The position numbers were made by a program, and so were the translations under genes. This document shows, in pieces, positions 1,957 through 14,124 of a DNA stretch of 21,099 nucleotides. Under the pieces are notes generated by a model. That model made no database searches and was not told the DNA's origin. It was given only the letters and a program-made list of their open reading frames with translations. The DNA comes from a virus, in the IMG/VR virus record IMGVR_UViG_3300009169_000119, positions 1-21,099 of that record; one strand, 5' to 3'. Numbering within the stretch: position 1 is the stretch's first letter; each line of letters starts with the position of its first letter.

Positions 1957-3093
1957 ATGGGAAGGTTCGGGATCGCCGGGGCGGGTATCTCAGGTGCGGT
2001 GATCGCACGACAGTTGGCTGACGCCGGGTTCGGCGTCCACGTCTACGAACGTCGCGACCACGTCGCCGGGAACTGCCACACCGACCGCGACGAGACCGGC
2101 GTGATGCGGCACCGGTACGGACCGCACATCTTCCACACCGGGAACGTCGACGTGTGGGAGTTCGTGAACCGGTTCGCCGACATGGTGCCGTATCGGCACC
2201 GCGTGAAAGCGGTCGCCGCCGACGGACACGTCTACTCGCTGCCGATCAACTTGCACACGATCAACCAGGCGTTCGGGACGGCGTTCGGACCGTGCGAGGC
2301 GCGGTCGTTCATGCAGTCGATCGTCGAACCGATCGCGGAGCCGGCCAACTTCGAACAGGCCGCGCTCGCGTCGGTCGGTCGACGCCTCTACGAACTGTTC
2401 TTCGAGGGGTACACGCTCAAGCAGTGGGGGATTCATCCGTCGGAACTGCCGGTGGACGTGTTCCGCCGACTGCCGATCCGGTTCAACTACGACGACGGGT
2501 ACTTCAACCATCCGTGGCAGGCGATCCCCCGGCACGGGTACACGGCGATGATCGAACAGATGCTCGACCATCCGCACATTCACGTCCACCTCGGAACCGA
2601 GTACCCGCACGGCGACCACCGGCACACGATCTGGACGGGTCCGCTCGACGCGTTCTTCGAGCATCGCTACGGACGCCTCTCCTACCGGACGCTCGACTTC
2701 GTGGACGTTCACGCCGACGGCGACGTGACCGGCGCTCCCATCGTGAACTACACGGCCCAGGACACACCGTGGACTCGGACGACCGAACACAAGCACTTCG
2801 CTCCGTGGGAGGTTCACCACCGGTCGACCGTCACCTACGAGTCGTCGCGACTCGCCGGACCAGACGACGACCCGTTCTACCCGATCCGCCTCGCGGACGA
2901 TCTCGACATCCTCGACGAGTACCGGCGACGCGCGCGGCAACGAACTGACGTCACGTTCGTCGGACGCCTCGCGACGTACCGCTACCTCGACATGGACGTG
3001 TCTGTGGCCGAAGCACTCGACGCCGCCGACGCGATCCGCCGCCACACGTTCGATGGCGGCTTCATCCCGGCGTTCACACACAAGGAGAACTGA
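1957..3093 (+). CDS. glf: UDP-galactopyranose mutase
   Basis: This flavoenzyme interconverts UDP-galactopyranose and UDP-galactofuranose, the donor of Galf residues. The 378 residues match the usual length. The FAD-binding Rossmann motif GIAGAGISG is at residues 5-13, followed by an acidic strand end YERRDHVAGN. Other family blocks are YGPHIFH (54-60), FEGYTLKQWG (149-158), FNYDDGYFNHPWQAIP (176-191), NYTAQDTPWTRTTEHKHF, and the C-terminal GRLATYRYLDMD (336-347), so the active site looks intact. There is no Shine-Dalgarno; a -10 box 9 bases upstream suggests a leaderless message. The stop overlaps the next start by one base (TGATG). It heads an operon with a ParB-like gene and a predicted DNA glycosyltransferase. 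In many actinobacterial hosts Galf builds the cell-wall galactan, so a role in host-envelope or virion glycans is an alternative to DNA modification. Confidence 0.93.
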   Translation: MGRFGIAGAGISGAVIARQLADAGFGVHVYERRDHVAGNCHTDRDETGVMRHRYGPHIFHTGNVDVWEFVNRFADMVPYRHRVKAVAADGHVYSLPINLHTINQAFGTAFGPCEARSFMQSIVEPIAEPANFEQAALASVGRRLYELFFEGYTLKQWGIHPSELPVDVFRRLPIRFNYDDGYFNHPWQAIPRHGYTAMIEQMLDHPHIHVHLGTEYPHGDHRHTIWTGPLDAFFEHRYGRLSYRTLDFVDVHADGDVTGAPIVNYTAQDTPWTRTTEHKHFAPWEVHHRSTVTYESSRLAGPDDDPFYPIRLADDLDILDEYRRRARQRTDVTFVGRLATYRYLDMDVSVAEALDAADAIRRHTFDGGFIPAFTHKEN

Positions 3094-3803
3094 TGGCTGC
3101 CCGCAAGACGACGACCGAACCGCAACTCGAACTGGTCCCGCTCGACGAGTTGAAACCGAACCCGCGGAACGCGAAACGACACGCCCCGCAGACGATCGGC
3201 CGCTCGATCGACCGGTTCGGGATGATGGAGCCGGTCATCGTCGACCGCCGAACCGGCTACCTCGTTGCCGGCCACGGCCGCACCGAGTCGATCGCCGAGA
3301 TGCGCGACTCCGGAGCGAAACCACCAGTCGGGATCACCGTCGACGACAAGGGACGCTGGCTCGTTCCGGCGATGACGAACTGGGCCTCGAAGAACGACGC
3401 CGAGGCCGACGCCGCGATGATCGCATTGAACCGCACCACCGAGATCGGCGGCTGGGACAACACGGCGCTGTTCGCGGTGCTCGACTCGCTCGAAGATGCC
3501 GACCTGCTCGCCGGGGTCGGCTACACGGAGTCCGACATCGACCTGTTGCGCCGCATCCACGAAGCGGACGAACAGTTCACGATGGACTTCTCCGACGTGA
3601 TCGACGAGTTCCTCGACTCGACCGGAACCGGTGACGAGTCGTTCCGGCAGGTCGCGTTCCGAGTGATGAAGGTGACGTTCTACGACGAGGACGGCGCACG
3701 CAAGTTCTTCGACGCGATCGGACGCAAGTACGACCCCGACATCAAGATGATCGGCTACCCCGACGGCCTCAAGCGCGGCAAGGTGGCGGACTTCGATGCC
3801 TAA
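3093..3803 (+). CDS. ParB-like N-terminal domain protein
   Basis: A 236-residue protein. Residues about 12-115 form a ParB/Srx-type domain: VPLDELKPNPRNAKRH, then IGRSIDRFGMMEPVIVD, and the diagnostic AGHGR at 59-63. The C-terminal half (from about residue 140) has no recognisable DNA-binding HTH, so this is not a classical partition ParB. Phage ParB-like proteins of this type are found beside DNA-modification enzymes and methylases and may act on or bind DNA; their exact activity varies. A Shine-Dalgarno AAGGAG lies 5 bases before the ATG. The gene overlaps glf by 1 base and the glycosyltransferase by 8 bases, so the three are very likely co-translated. No parA partner is present. Confidence 0.85.
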   Translation: MAARKTTTEPQLELVPLDELKPNPRNAKRHAPQTIGRSIDRFGMMEPVIVDRRTGYLVAGHGRTESIAEMRDSGAKPPVGITVDDKGRWLVPAMTNWASKNDAEADAAMIALNRTTEIGGWDNTALFAVLDSLEDADLLAGVGYTESDIDLLRRIHEADEQFTMDFSDVIDEFLDSTGTGDESFRQVAFRVMKVTFYDEDGARKFFDAIGRKYDPDIKMIGYPDGLKRGKVADFDA

Positions 3804-4686
3804 GCCGACGCGCTCGAAGTACCCGGTCTACATCCCGACGAAGGGACGACCGGAACGGCAACTCACCGCGAAGTACCTGCTGTCGATCGGCATCGTCCCG
3901 AACCTCGTGGTGCAGGACGACCAGTACGACGCCTACGCGAAAGCGAACCCAGAGTGCAACGTCCTCGTGTGGCCGGAACGGTTCTACGACGAGTACGAGA
4001 AGACCCCGTCGATGGTCGACGGCGAAGGCCGGTTCCCGCACCCCACTGCCGGGGTCGGTCGGAACTTCGCGTTCGAGCACTCGTTCGAGGCCGGCCACAA
4101 GTACCACTGGACGATGGACGACAACATCTACGACTTCATCGTCATGGATCACGGCGTGTTCAAGTACTCGCGGACGCAGACGCCGATCGTGTGGCACGAA
4201 CAGTTCGCCGACCGTTGGGTGAACCTCGGCGGGTTGTGCCTCGCGCAGTCGACGTTCATGAGCCGGACGAACGACCGCGTGTCGGAGACGTCGAAGAAAC
4301 TGGTGCTGAACACGCGCCTGTACTGCGCGCAACTGATGAACGGCGAGATGATGGCGTCGACCGGACTGCGGTGGCGGCGCGGCCTGAACGACGACACGAT
4401 CTTCTCGATCGACATCCTCAAGACCCGGTACTGGTGCACCGTGCAGTCGTACACGGTCGGCATCAAGAAGGTCGGCACGTCACGCAAGGGCCGGCTCCAA
4501 GGTGGGATGACCCAGTACTACGCGAACGGCGGGTTCATCCGGAAGGCGGCGGAACTCGTGCGGTGTCATCCGGACGTCGCCACGACCGTCGTGAAGTTCC
4601 AACGCGTCCACCACCATTGCGACTTCTCGTCGTTCGATCAGCAGTTGATCCCCGTCAAGCAGCCGAAGTCACGCACCCGGCGCTAA
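3796..4686 (+). CDS. TET-associated-type glycosyltransferase (TAGT), predicted DNA-base glycosyltransferase
   Basis: A 296-residue GT-A-fold protein. Residues 11-18 (VYIPTKGR) form the first strand and nucleotide-binding loop typical of the TAGT family. WTMDDNIYDF (105-114) carries the DDN triad, equivalent to the metal-binding DxD. A conserved second half follows (AQSTFMSR, then LNTRLYCAQLMN and RRGLNDDTIFSIDILK). TAGT enzymes were predicted from phage gene neighbourhoods to glycosylate oxidised or hydroxymethylated bases, beside TET/JBP dioxygenases and ParB-like genes. Here the ParB-like gene overlaps by 8 bases and a UDP-Galf-producing mutase starts the operon, so UDP-galactofuranose is a natural donor candidate. 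No dioxygenase or DNA methylase is in this window. Family call is by motif reading; the substrate is inference. Confidence 0.75.
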   Translation: MPKPTRSKYPVYIPTKGRPERQLTAKYLLSIGIVPNLVVQDDQYDAYAKANPECNVLVWPERFYDEYEKTPSMVDGEGRFPHPTAGVGRNFAFEHSFEAGHKYHWTMDDNIYDFIVMDHGVFKYSRTQTPIVWHEQFADRWVNLGGLCLAQSTFMSRTNDRVSETSKKLVLNTRLYCAQLMNGEMMASTGLRWRRGLNDDTIFSIDILKTRYWCTVQSYTVGIKKVGTSRKGRLQGGMTQYYANGGFIRKAAELVRCHPDVATTVVKFQRVHHHCDFSSFDQQLIPVKQPKSRTRR

Positions 4687-6926: not shown

Positions 6927-7265
6927 ATGGCGACAGTCGAACCGGACCGACCGTTGGGCCGTTACGGACGGGCGATGTGGGACGAGGTCCACGCGTCCGG
7001 CGAGGTGAAGGGATCGCTGGAACCGTTGCTGATGTTGTGCGAACGGCTCGACGAGCGGTTCCGGCTTCGTGCGGCGATGAACCGGATCGACGACGCGGGT
7101 CAGCCGGTTCCGGCGACGTCGGATCAGCACGGCGCGCTGCGGGCGCTCGAAGCACAGATCGAGGCGGCGTTCCGTGACCTCGGCATCCGCACGATCCTGC
7201 CGAACCGGGGCGCGGCGGCGACGTCGGACAACTGGGCGGCGGAACTTGCCGCGCTGCGTGGATGA
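6927..7265 (+). CDS. terS: Terminase small subunit (putative)
   Basis: A 112-residue mostly helical protein directly upstream of, and overlapping by 4 bases (ATGA), the large terminase gene. That is the standard place of the small subunit, which recognises the packaging site. Residues about 10-75 (GRYGRAMWDEVHASGEVKGS, then LMLCERLDERFRLRAAM) and LRALEAQIEAAFRDLGI match the helical pattern of P27-like actinophage small terminases. Apparent leaderless start (TACGCT box 8 bases upstream). Assignment rests mainly on position, size and helical layout. Confidence 0.75.
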   Translation: MATVEPDRPLGRYGRAMWDEVHASGEVKGSLEPLLMLCERLDERFRLRAAMNRIDDAGQPVPATSDQHGALRALEAQIEAAFRDLGIRTILPNRGAAATSDNWAAELAALRG

Positions 7266-8776
7266 AAGGCCCGCGCGACTTCGTTCCCCCGCGGATCGGG
7301 ACGCCGCGTGATCCGGACTCGCCGACGCTCGGGCCGCAGATCGCACGGATCTCCGAACTGCTCGGCGAGTCGTTCATGCCCCACCAGCGGCACATCGTCG
7401 ACGTCGCCTACGAACTGAATCCCGACGGGCGACTGAAGTACGACGAGATCGTCTGCACGATGATGCGCCAGTCCGGCAAGACGACGCTGGTGCGGGCGAA
7501 GTCCGTGTGGCGGTGTTCGACCGGTCAACAGGTGTTCGGCACCGATCAGGTCTCGGTGTACACCGCGCAGAAACGACAGGACGCCCGCAAGCGGTTGCAG
7601 CGCGACGTCGTCCCGCGGCTCCGCAAGGCACCGATGTTCCGCGAGATCGCCGACTCGCGCCGGACGCCCGAAACGATGACCGACTGGAAGGTGTCGATGA
7701 ACAACGGGCAGGAACACGTGATGTTCGGTCCGTCGTCGTATCTGCAGATCGAGACCCCGAACCGTGAGGCCGGCCACGGCGACACGATCGACGACGCCAC
7801 GATTGACGAGGCGTTCGCGCATCGGAACGACGAGGTGGAACAGGGCCTCGCGCCGACGATGTTGACCCGCGCCGGGAAGCAACTGTGGGTCGTGTCGACC
7901 GCGGGCGACGACCAGTCGTTCTACCTGTGGCCGAAGATCCGTGACGGTCGGTCGGCGGTCGAGTCCGGCGTGGCCGGGAACGTCGCCTACTTCGAGTGGT
8001 CGTTGCCACCGGAGGCCGACATCGACGACGAGAACGCCTGGTGGGAGTTCATGCCCGCGCTCGGTCGCACGATCGACGTCGACACGCTGCGACGCGAATT
8101 GGCGAAGGCGCGACGTCGGACCGACGAAGATGGTGAGGACCTGTTCCGTCGAGCAAACTGCAATCAGTGGGTGAGAATTCCGATCATGAGCGACGACGAC
8201 CAGCCGGCTGTAATCGACCCCGAACTGTGGCAGTCGTTGACCGACCCGACGGCACGGATCGTCGGAGACATCGCGCTCGGTGTCGACCAGTCGCCGCAGC
8301 ATCGCACGCACTATCTCGCCGTCGCCGGTCGCACCGCCGACGGTCAACTGCTTGTCGAAGTGATCCACGAGCAGCGTTCGTCGATCGGCCTCGAAGATCG
8401 GATCGACGAGGCCATCCAACGGTTCTCGCCCGTGCGTATCGCCTGGGACAACGGCTCGTCGCGCGTGCTCGCGCCCATGTTGAACCGGGTCGTCGGCGAC
8501 CGGACCGACATGCTGCAGCCGTACTCCGGTCGCGACTGGGCCGCGGCGTGCGAGTCGTTCTACAACGGCGTCAACGAGCACGTCGTCTGCCACCTGAATC
8601 AGGACTGGCTCACGTTCGGGATCGAAGGCGCGATGCAGAAGCGCCGGGGTGACGCCTGGGTGTGGGATAGGCTCACCGCAACGTCGGACATCGCGGGACT
8701 GTGCGCTGCCACGGCGGCATATCGAGCGATCGAGACCTACACACCGACCGAGGACGAAGCGTTCTATGTCTACTGA
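7262..8776 (+). CDS. terL: Terminase large subunit
   Basis: The 504-residue ATPase-nuclease motor that pumps and cuts phage DNA at the portal. Residues 68-75 (MRQSGKTT) form the Walker A-like motif, and TIDDATIDEA (175-184) contains the Walker B region and catalytic acid. LWVVSTAG (209-216) fits the coupling motif. The C-terminal RNase H-like nuclease begins at IALGVDQSPQHRTHYLAVAG (Asp342), with a second acidic site in RIAWDNGSS (Asp396). Length is normal and all motor and nuclease elements appear intact. It overlaps terS by 4 bases and the next small membrane gene by 11 bases. Confidence 0.93.
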   Translation: MKGPRDFVPPRIGTPRDPDSPTLGPQIARISELLGESFMPHQRHIVDVAYELNPDGRLKYDEIVCTMMRQSGKTTLVRAKSVWRCSTGQQVFGTDQVSVYTAQKRQDARKRLQRDVVPRLRKAPMFREIADSRRTPETMTDWKVSMNNGQEHVMFGPSSYLQIETPNREAGHGDTIDDATIDEAFAHRNDEVEQGLAPTMLTRAGKQLWVVSTAGDDQSFYLWPKIRDGRSAVESGVAGNVAYFEWSLPPEADIDDENAWWEFMPALGRTIDVDTLRRELAKARRRTDEDGEDLFRRANCNQWVRIPIMSDDDQPAVIDPELWQSLTDPTARIVGDIALGVDQSPQHRTHYLAVAGRTADGQLLVEVIHEQRSSIGLEDRIDEAIQRFSPVRIAWDNGSSRVLAPMLNRVVGDRTDMLQPYSGRDWAAACESFYNGVNEHVVCHLNQDWLTFGIEGAMQKRRGDAWVWDRLTATSDIAGLCAATAAYRAIETYTPTEDEAFYVY

Positions 8777-12572: not shown

Positions 12573-12770
12573 ATGGGAACCGTCAGACCGAAGGCCACGA
12601 TGTCCGCCTACTTCGAGTCGTTGGACTCGTTCGTTCCGTTGCGTCGAGGTGACGCCTGGGACAGCGACGATCCGCTCGTGCGTGAGCGTCCGGACCTGTT
12701 CGAGCATCCCGTCGAGCAGGCGACAGCCGCGCCCGGCGAGAAGCGTTCGACCCGGCGTCCGCAGTCGTGA
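12573..12770 (+). CDS. Hypothetical protein, 65 aa
   Basis: A 65-residue polar protein (MGTVRPKATMSAYFESLDSF) with no cysteines or membrane segment. A GAAGGAG site lies before the ATG, and its stop overlaps the next gene's GTG start by 4 bases (GTGA). Position directly after the capsid gene suggests a small head-related protein, as seen in other actinophages, but no family is recognised. Confidence 0.7.
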   Translation: MGTVRPKATMSAYFESLDSFVPLRRGDAWDSDDPLVRERPDLFEHPVEQATAAPGEKRSTRRPQS

Positions 12771-13561
12771 TCGACGGATCAGTCTCCATCGGGTTCATCC
12801 ACGACGGATCAGTCCGAGCGACGTTCTTCACCCGGTTCACGGAACTGGTGCTGTTCGACCTGGCGAACAACCAACGGCTGTTCTCGCACGACAAGTTCTG
12901 GCTGCAGGGCCAGTACGGATCGGGCGGCATCGTGCAAGGCCGGAACGACATCGCCCGCGCGATGTGTGAAACGTCGTCGGCGGAATGGCTGCTGTGGATC
13001 GACACCGACATGGGGTTCGACCCCGATCTCGCGGATCGGCTGATCGACGCCGCGGACCCGGTCGAGCGTCCGGTCGTCGGCGCGCTCTGCTTCGCGCAGA
13101 AGAACGACGGCGGCAAGCCCTACGGGGCGCGCTGGTTCCGGACGCAGCCGACGATCTACCTGTGGGTCGATCAGGGCGAGGACGTCGGGTTCACGCCGCG
13201 GTTCGACTACGAGCGCGACGCGATCGTGCAGTGCAACGCGACCGGGTCGGCGGCGATCCTGATTCACCGGACGGTGCTCGAACGGATGCGGGACGAACTC
13301 GGCGCTGATTGGTACACGCCGATCAAGCACAAGTCCGGCACCGTGTTCTCGGAGGACCTGTCGTTCTGCATGAGGCTGATGACGATGGGTGTGCCGGTGT
13401 TCGTCGACACCTCGGTCAAGACGACGCACGACAAGTTCGGGATCTTCCTCGACGAGGAGCAGTACGACCGGGAGCGCGCCGCGGCGAAGGCCGGCCAACC
13501 GATGCCCCCGCCGATCCCTCGGGTCACGCTCGATCCTGGCTTCATGGAAGCGAAGGGCTGA
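12767..13561 (+). CDS. GT-A glycosyltransferase in the structural operon
   Basis: A 264-residue glycosyltransferase with a GT-A (GT2-like) fold. Strand VSIGFIHDG begins the nucleotide-binding half. WLLWIDTDMGFDPDLADRLI contains the metal-binding DTD (79-81). GSAAILIHR and SEDLSFCMRL (ED at 196-197) form the acceptor and catalytic region, and TTHDKFG supplies the third metal-ligand histidine (H221). It starts with GTG in a GTGA overlap. The 5' end contains a repeated 12-mer encoding DGSV twice (12773-12784 and 12803-12814), so the exact start is slightly uncertain. With the methyltransferase behind it, it could glycosylate capsid or tail proteins; a separate predicted glycosyltransferase (3796-4686) may act on DNA. 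Substrate unknown. Confidence 0.82.
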   Translation: MIDGSVSIGFIHDGSVRATFFTRFTELVLFDLANNQRLFSHDKFWLQGQYGSGGIVQGRNDIARAMCETSSAEWLLWIDTDMGFDPDLADRLIDAADPVERPVVGALCFAQKNDGGKPYGARWFRTQPTIYLWVDQGEDVGFTPRFDYERDAIVQCNATGSAAILIHRTVLERMRDELGADWYTPIKHKSGTVFSEDLSFCMRLMTMGVPVFVDTSVKTTHDKFGIFLDEEQYDRERAAAKAGQPMPPPIPRVTLDPGFMEAKG

Positions 13562-14124
13562 TGTACTCGGAGGCGTCGTTCACGCGGCCACGTCCGGACT
13601 GCCCGCACCCCGAACGGTGGACGGCGCTCGACCCGCAGGCAACCGAGGTCGAAGTGATCGTGCTGGTCGCGGCGCTGATCGGTGCGTTGCAGCCGGACGT
13701 CGTCATCGAGACCGGGACGTACACCGGGGCGATGGCGCACACGATCGGCGAGCAGTTGCGACACAACGGGCAGGGTCGACTCGTGACGATGGAACCCGAC
13801 GTCGACCGGTCGCGCGCCGCTGTCGAACTGTGCGCCGGTCTGCCGGTGACGGTGCTGACCCGACCGAGCCTCGACGTGTCGCCGGACGAGATCCGGTCGC
13901 TCGCTCCCGGCCACGTCGGGTTCGCCTGGTTCGACTCGCTGACCGAGTTGCGTGCCGCCGAGTTCGATCACTTCCTCGAACTGTTCGACGCGCGCACGGT
14001 CGTCGGCTTCCACGACGCGGGTCCGCATCACGGTCCGTGGTCGAACCGAGTCCGCACACACCCGCGGCTCCGGACGATCGACCTGCCGACACCCCGCGGC
14101 TGCATCCTCGCGCAGGTCGTATAG
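13561..14124 (+). CDS. SAM-dependent methyltransferase, class I
   Basis: A 187-residue Rossmann-fold methyltransferase. Motif I is VVIETGTYTGAMAHTIG (47-63), the acidic end of strand 2 is LVTMEPDVDRSRAA (E78), motif post-II is VGFAWFDSLTEL (D125), and VVGFHDAGPHHG (148-158) follows. The order resembles O-methyltransferase/cephalosporin-hydroxylase-type phage enzymes rather than a DNA-base methylase, because the N6A/C5 catalytic motifs (DPPY, PCQ) are absent. It overlaps the glycosyltransferase by 1 base (TGATG), suggesting joint action such as methylating the sugar that enzyme adds. It is the last gene of its operon. Confidence 0.78.
   Translation: MYSEASFTRPRPDCPHPERWTALDPQATEVEVIVLVAALIGALQPDVVIETGTYTGAMAHTIGEQLRHNGQGRLVTMEPDVDRSRAAVELCAGLPVTVLTRPSLDVSPDEIRSLAPGHVGFAWFDSLTELRAAEFDHFLELFDARTVVGFHDAGPHHGPWSNRVRTHPRLRTIDLPTPRGCILAQVV

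Follow-up and report, generated by a model that had tools for sequence, protein, structure and literature searches.

Why would a virus keep a gene for its own UDP-galactopyranose mutase (Glf) in an overlapping run with genes for a ParB-like protein and a TAGT-family glycosyltransferase? The question is raised by IMG/VR record IMGVR_UViG_3300009169_000119, of which all 21,099 bases form the window analysed here, this being an entire virus record rather than a piece of some longer contig. We propose that the trio is a DNA-hypermodification cassette, and regard it as modestly probable that DNA galactofuranosylation, the best explanation for the window, is the correct one. Because the pairing of Glf with DNA glycosyltransferases recurs in several unrelated viruses, these data suggest that galactose in an unusual, five-membered-ring form coats the DNA of some viruses.

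The three-gene cassette

A preliminary description had placed three overlapping genes at 1957-4686, and its coordinates proved exact. The genes lie head to tail, with overlaps of 1 nt between Glf and ParB and 8 nt between ParB and TAGT, and with the motif AAGGAG immediately 5' of the ParB ATG:

1957 to 3093, + strand: Glf, UDP-galactopyranose mutase, 378 amino acids; matches PF03275 and the Klebsiella UDP-galactopyranose mutase (UGM) structures 3gf4/2bi7
3093 to 3803, + strand: ParB-like protein, 236 amino acids; matches phrog_620, phrog_723 and the N-terminal part of phrog_498
3796 to 4686, + strand: TAGT glycosyltransferase, 296 amino acids; matches PF20691 and phrog_842 (E 1.4e-27), with a GT-A structure model

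The first of these proteins belongs to the UGM family and is predicted from its sequence to make UDP-galactofuranose (UDP-Galf) from UDP-galactopyranose (UDP-Galp). It matches PF03275 (E 2.6e-66) and the FAD-binding NAD_binding_8 (E 1.5e-18), and its residues 6-374 align to the Klebsiella structures with E of about 1e-125. Counted by hand from this alignment, K. pneumoniae residues Y155, W160, R174, Y185, N270, R280, Y314, R343, Y349 and D351 are all conserved in the window Glf, as Y152, W157, R171, Y182, N264, R274, Y308, R337, Y343 and D345 respectively. In UGMs, W160, R174, R280, Y314, Y349 and D351 have catalytic or substrate-binding roles. Every catalytic and binding residue that was checked is kept, and the active site is therefore as intact-looking as had been described.

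Several ParB families in PHROG match the second protein (phrog_620 best, E 1.8e-27), in keeping with its earlier identification as ParB-like, whereas Pfam has no match to it. The phrog_498 family, to which its match extends, is a phage DNA methyltransferase family, and the protein would act as a DNA-binding partner of TAGT.

The third protein scores 82.1 bits against PF20691 (E 6.7e-23), well over the cut-off of 27.5, and has the DDN metal site attributed to it previously, at residues 108-110. Across 35 diverse TAGTs, residues D109, N198, D200, H272 and H273 do not vary, while the conservation of D108 is at least 90%. Structure prediction for 3796-4686 agrees with the profile match: the model (pLDDT 86.8, pTM 0.88) finds its best PDB matches among GT-A enzymes, such as collagen galactosyltransferase, LARGE1 and B4GALNT1, with TM-scores of about 0.4, and therefore with a likeness at the level of the fold only. 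As modelled, the window TAGT is a GT-A-fold glycosyltransferase with an acidic metal motif. A viral scan using it as a single sequence found no relative.

From these genes we infer a mechanism in which Glf would convert UDP-galactopyranose to UDP-galactofuranose, the donor, and TAGT would move the furanose from UDP-Galf onto a prepared base in the DNA of the phage. TAGT usually has a ParB-like protein as its partner, and the one here would probably bring it to DNA, or hold or position it there. A base carrying galactofuranose would result, and would block restriction and Cas nucleases.

Glf beside DNA glycosyltransferases in other phages

Judged by homology, Glf is coupled to DNA-glycosyltransferase families in several lineages (loci collected in this work carry the prefix L): to TAGT in L005 and L201, to T4 DNA alpha-glucosyltransferase (AGT) in L004, L017, L018 and L019, and to DNA beta-glucosyltransferase (BGT) in Lactobacillus brevis phage ATCCB. 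It is likewise coupled to predicted pyrimidine hydroxymethylases in ATCCB, L046 and L078, and, elsewhere than beside Glf, in the L019 record.

On the 9,986-base viral contig L005, ParB (387-1247), TAGT (1237-2097; PF20691 E 2e-34) and Glf (2094-3245) are followed by terminase-like and portal-like genes. Its TAGT is 18% identical to that of the window and its Glf about 50% identical, and the gene order differs, being ParB-TAGT-Glf. The same order, ParB, TAGT, Glf, is found in L201, where Glf (PF03275 E 6.3e-30) and TAGT overlap by 4 nt. The AGT homologue that Glf overlaps by 4 nt in L004, L017, L018 and L019 is recognised by phrog_2888 (E 1.5e-86) and by solved AGT structures (PDB 1y6f, E 9.5e-11), its Pfam AGT score of 23.1 bits falling slightly under the 25-bit cut-off. 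These cyanophage-like contigs, which carry photosystem and topoisomerase genes, are close relatives, and hence are counted as one lineage.

ATCCB (MK504445) encodes consecutively a hydroxymethylase homologue, annotated as a thymidylate synthase (best solved match CMP 5-hydroxymethylase, E 2.9e-27), a BGT homologue (PF09198 E 9e-22; 1bgt E 3.9e-43) and Glf (PF03275 E 1.1e-77). As ATCCB is a cultured phage with the module in a row, the proposal is directly testable; the main text of the L. brevis phage paper naming it contains no words starting galacto-, glucosyl- or modif-. At L046:8968-14268, a pyrimidine hydroxymethylase (CMP 5-hydroxymethylase 5jnh, E 5.3e-46), Glf, a PF13524 glycosyltransferase (match under cut-off), a kinase-like protein, an NAD-epimerase and a thymidine kinase are encoded by abutting or overlapping genes, a row with the look of an entire pathway within a single operon. 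Related genes, including the hydroxymethylase, surround Glf in L078. The acceptor base in ATCCB and L046 would be a hydroxymethylpyrimidine.

A change from Asn to Asp marks pyrimidine hydroxymethylases relative to thymidylate synthase. In an alignment, Asp occupies the key site in all four hydroxymethylase-like proteins (from ATCCB, L046, L078 and the L019 record); the 159-kb L019 record has one thymidylate-synthase-family protein, which carries this Asp in place of the thymidylate synthase Asn, and its best score is still to thymidylate synthases. Thymidylate-synthase-family genes occur in five of the five cultured phages with Glf: one in ATCCB, and two each in FBB1, Aeromonas phage 25, RL38JI and phiM9.

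An uncharacterised phrog_14998 protein is encoded directly 3' of Glf in Erwinia phage FBB1 (L175:5017-6078, with a 1-nt overlap) and in Aeromonas phage 25 (L174:5058-6134), and is a candidate DNA glycosyltransferase by position only. These post-Glf genes gave no convincing Pfam family, and that of FBB1 nothing useful in the PDB.

The phylogeny of Glf (INDEPENDENCE; maximum likelihood, 88 Glf rows) does not support a single origin of the DNA-glycosyltransferase-linked genes. The ten linked rows need 7 label changes, at least 6 of them forced by well-supported branches, a pattern that fits both repeated gain and fewer gains with several losses. DNA galactofuranosylation may be a recurrent phage modification that evolved repeatedly through the recruitment of Glf to TAGT, AGT, BGT and other enzymes, with the ParB-TAGT lineage using a novel base-preparation step; this wider proposal we advance only tentatively.

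The ParB-TAGT pair is itself recurrent. Scanning viral contigs and genome contigs for TAGT yielded 198 loci, with 2,711 open reading frames (ORFs), in addition to the loci reached through Glf. Among loci with room upstream, a ParB-like gene lies within 1.5 kb upstream of TAGT, often abutting it, in 73/75 L005-type and 37/71 window-type loci; these counts are lower bounds, because ParB was searched for with one sequence. The commonest cluster downstream, about 1.3 kb past the TAGT start, is read from position and length as the large terminase. L220:1905-2891, a fusion of histidine-phosphatase and cytidylyltransferase that stands near TAGT and beside a ParB-like gene, represents a cluster with a member nearby in 33 TAGT loci, and members of an NAD-epimerase cluster occur in 4; both would be other donor-making add-ons. 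On the 115-kb viral contig L195, five tandem TAGT ORFs (L195:5419-10843) adjoin a ParB-like gene, and may build a multi-sugar chain.

Counter-evidence and alternative roles

Several results weigh against DNA galactofuranosylation. Firstly, Glf is a rare add-on at TAGT loci, with a single instance among the 2,711 ORFs of the 198 loci; about 396 of these ORFs are adjacent to TAGT, making the chance contact of that one Glf roughly 15%. Hence a single Glf-TAGT contact in 198 loci proves nothing by itself; what carries weight is that L005 and the window provide further contacts, and that Glf is coupled to other glycosyltransferase families as well. Secondly, the Glf of L201 is very diverged (tree branch 5.6), and the sugar of L201 may therefore differ. 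Thirdly, profile comparison of the L046 and L078 glycosyltransferases with AGT and BGT gave no link (the model of the L046 enzyme, with a pLDDT of 39, is too poor for use). Fourthly, of the 80 best viral Glf loci, which make up the survey, the majority have no recognised DNA glycosyltransferase adjoining Glf. Hence Glf is not diagnostic alone, and as such was rejected as a marker of DNA modification.

These many viral Glf genes in other clusters, without a DNA glycosyltransferase, favour an alternative in which Glf remodels the host surface, to exclude superinfection or to alter a receptor, and has nothing to do with TAGT; the phage paper found to discuss Glf also takes its own for a host cell-wall enzyme (PMC6630229). 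We consider such a role distinctly improbable for the window, where Glf is placed, overlapping, in the ParB-TAGT block upstream of the terminase, and it accords poorly with the repeated coupling of Glf to DNA glycosyltransferases and hydroxymethylases in other phages.

The remaining counter-evidence to DNA galactofuranosylation concerns the preparation of the base. Across 41 ParB-TAGT records, which may be fragments, neither Tet_JBP (for which the control matched nowhere) nor the thymidylate-synthase family was found (0/41 for each), and C5-methylase was present in 5/41, leaving no common base-preparing enzyme. When four records, and the genes upstream of ParB-TAGT, were surveyed with Pfam, no recurrent base-preparing candidate emerged among the families listed. 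Nor was TET/JBP found in 13 records of Glf loci, where again the Tet_JBP control matched nowhere. Scanning of the window genes, on a 21-kb fragment, recognised no TET/JBP, C5-methylase or hydroxymethylase, matching the earlier statement that no dioxygenase, methylase or other base-preparing enzyme lies in the window. The idea that Glf supplies a DNA glycosyltransferase is thus borne out in part: elsewhere Glf is coupled to TAGT, AGT, BGT and hydroxymethylases, whereas the expected TET/JBP partner is unsupported (0/41 and 0/13).

ParB-TAGT might instead add Galf to a non-prepared target: a protein, for instance, or a base that has undergone no preparation and is modified by unknown chemistry. 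In favour of this are the ParB-TAGT records in which no TET/JBP or hydroxymethylase was found, and the protein and lipid glycosyltransferases among the TAGT structure matches. Against it, a TAGT-family member of T6 adds a second glucose to glucosylated DNA cytosine (PMC13216743), and the match of the ParB-like protein extends to the N-terminus of a family of phage DNA methyltransferases. On balance, we regard a non-prepared target as quite unlikely.

Further genes of the window are as follows:

395 to 1480, + strand: DUF932 protein (PF06067, E 3.6e-45), context, outside the proposed pathway
6927 to 7265, + strand: small terminase subunit candidate, context (phmmer matches to ORFs directly upstream of large-terminase candidates in TAGT loci; no match in PHROG)
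7262 to 8776, + strand: terminase large subunit, context (phrog_9, E 4.8e-59)
12767 to 13561, + strand: second glycosyltransferase, between capsid and head-tail genes (phrog_34859, E 7.6e-18)
13560 to 14124, + strand: class I methyltransferase-like protein (assigned by motif reading of the sequence alone; no match in Pfam or PHROG)

The second glycosyltransferase gene overlaps the methyltransferase-like gene, between capsid and head-tail connector, and the pair (12767-14124) is like virion glycosylation pairs. Glf could feed UDP-Galf to this glycosyltransferase, decorating a capsid or tail protein together with the methyltransferase-like gene, in which case ParB-TAGT would modify DNA independently, with a UDP-sugar from the host. 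The placing of the second glycosyltransferase between capsid and head-tail genes favours this possibility, as does the viral family of L006 and L021-L033, in which a Glf 51-52% identical to that of the window closely follows the large terminase and is accompanied by GT2-like, DUF3431 and Methyltransf_24 genes. So too does L264 (contig JADGHD010000056.1, binned with a Frankia metagenome-assembled genome, MAG), the nearest structural relative found, in which ParB-TAGT lies upstream of the terminase, with a terminase-small candidate, terminase, portal, protease and capsid, and Glf is absent. However, the window Glf overlaps the ParB-TAGT block and is about 9.7 kb away from the second glycosyltransferase, the Glf-TAGT contact is repeated in L005, and the window's second glycosyltransferase and methyltransferase have no detectable homology to the Glf neighbours of L006, L022 and L027. 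Virion glycosylation is thereby weakened as an account of Glf, and in our view is unlikely.

The trio is followed 3' by small genes, including one for an HNH endonuclease, and then by terminase, portal, protease, capsid, head-tail connector and tape measure genes; it thus lies upstream of the packaging genes, as in L005, L201 and L264. As L264 has ParB-TAGT without Glf, ParB-TAGT looks like the core, and Glf like an addition in the window. In other phages, too, homologues of the DUF932 protein lie close to ParB-TAGT; they account for 16 of the collected ORFs. An actinobacterial host is probable, given the window's GC content of about 66% and the binning of its relative L264 with a Frankia MAG; the window's large terminase, used as a query, found remote relatives only.

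Comparison with known DNA modifications

A literature search, which most subscription papers and preprints lay outside, found nothing relevant on galactofuranose or Glf with phage DNA modification; this agrees with the view in the preliminary description that galactofuranosyl DNA bases are not known to have been described, and an earlier description is possible. Phage DNA glycosylation is already known, and a furanose donor made by the phage's own mutase would be a new variant. The phage DNA sugars in the literature consulted are glucose and arabinose, and a furanose hexose would, if true, be new, with the donor enzyme carried in the same cassette as the DNA glycosyltransferase. DNA furanose modification could then be predicted from sequence, by the rule that Glf adjoins a DNA glycosyltransferase. 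New DNA-labelling enzymes might also follow, and the modification might counter defences specific to glucose, for example Brig1 or GmrSD-type enzymes.

TET/JBP-TAGT systems, reportedly predicted by Iyer et al. in 2013, are similar to the window in having the TAGT family with ParB-like neighbours, as ParB adjoins TAGT in the window. They differ in their TET/JBP, which was found neither in the window nor in the 41 ParB-TAGT records (the Tet_JBP control matching nowhere), and we know of no Glf addition to them from Iyer et al. 2013.

In Rhizobium phage RL38JI, dC is replaced by three modified residues (PMC7067960), and the DNA is tabulated as variably glycosylated 5-hydroxymethylcytosine (5hmC; PMC5977210). 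Although its Glf, unlike that of the window, adjoins no recognised glycosyltransferase, RL38JI is alike in encoding Glf, together with two thymidylate-synthase-family genes, in a phage with modified DNA. RB69-type arabinosylation of DNA cytosine similarly combines a non-glucose DNA sugar with candidate phage donor-making genes (PMC6024577). In that case, however, the sugar is arabinose, the proposed donor genes are not mutases, and the proposed transferase, ORF003c, has two Rossmann-like folds, unlike TAGT (PMC6024577).

The TAGT family is that of the T6 second-glucose enzyme, and phage glycosyltransferases act on hydroxymethylated DNA (PMC13216743, PMC13390438); solitary TAGTs are possibly novel transferases, according to a 2026 paper (PMC13216743). 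The glucosylation of T-even phages, by AGT and BGT in T4 and by TAGT in T6, on 5hmC, is akin to the systems described here, in which homologues of AGT and BGT adjoin Glf in L019 and ATCCB respectively. The difference lies in the source of the sugar: T-even phages take UDP-glucose from the host, whereas the window cassette has its own mutase, predicted to provide a furanose donor.

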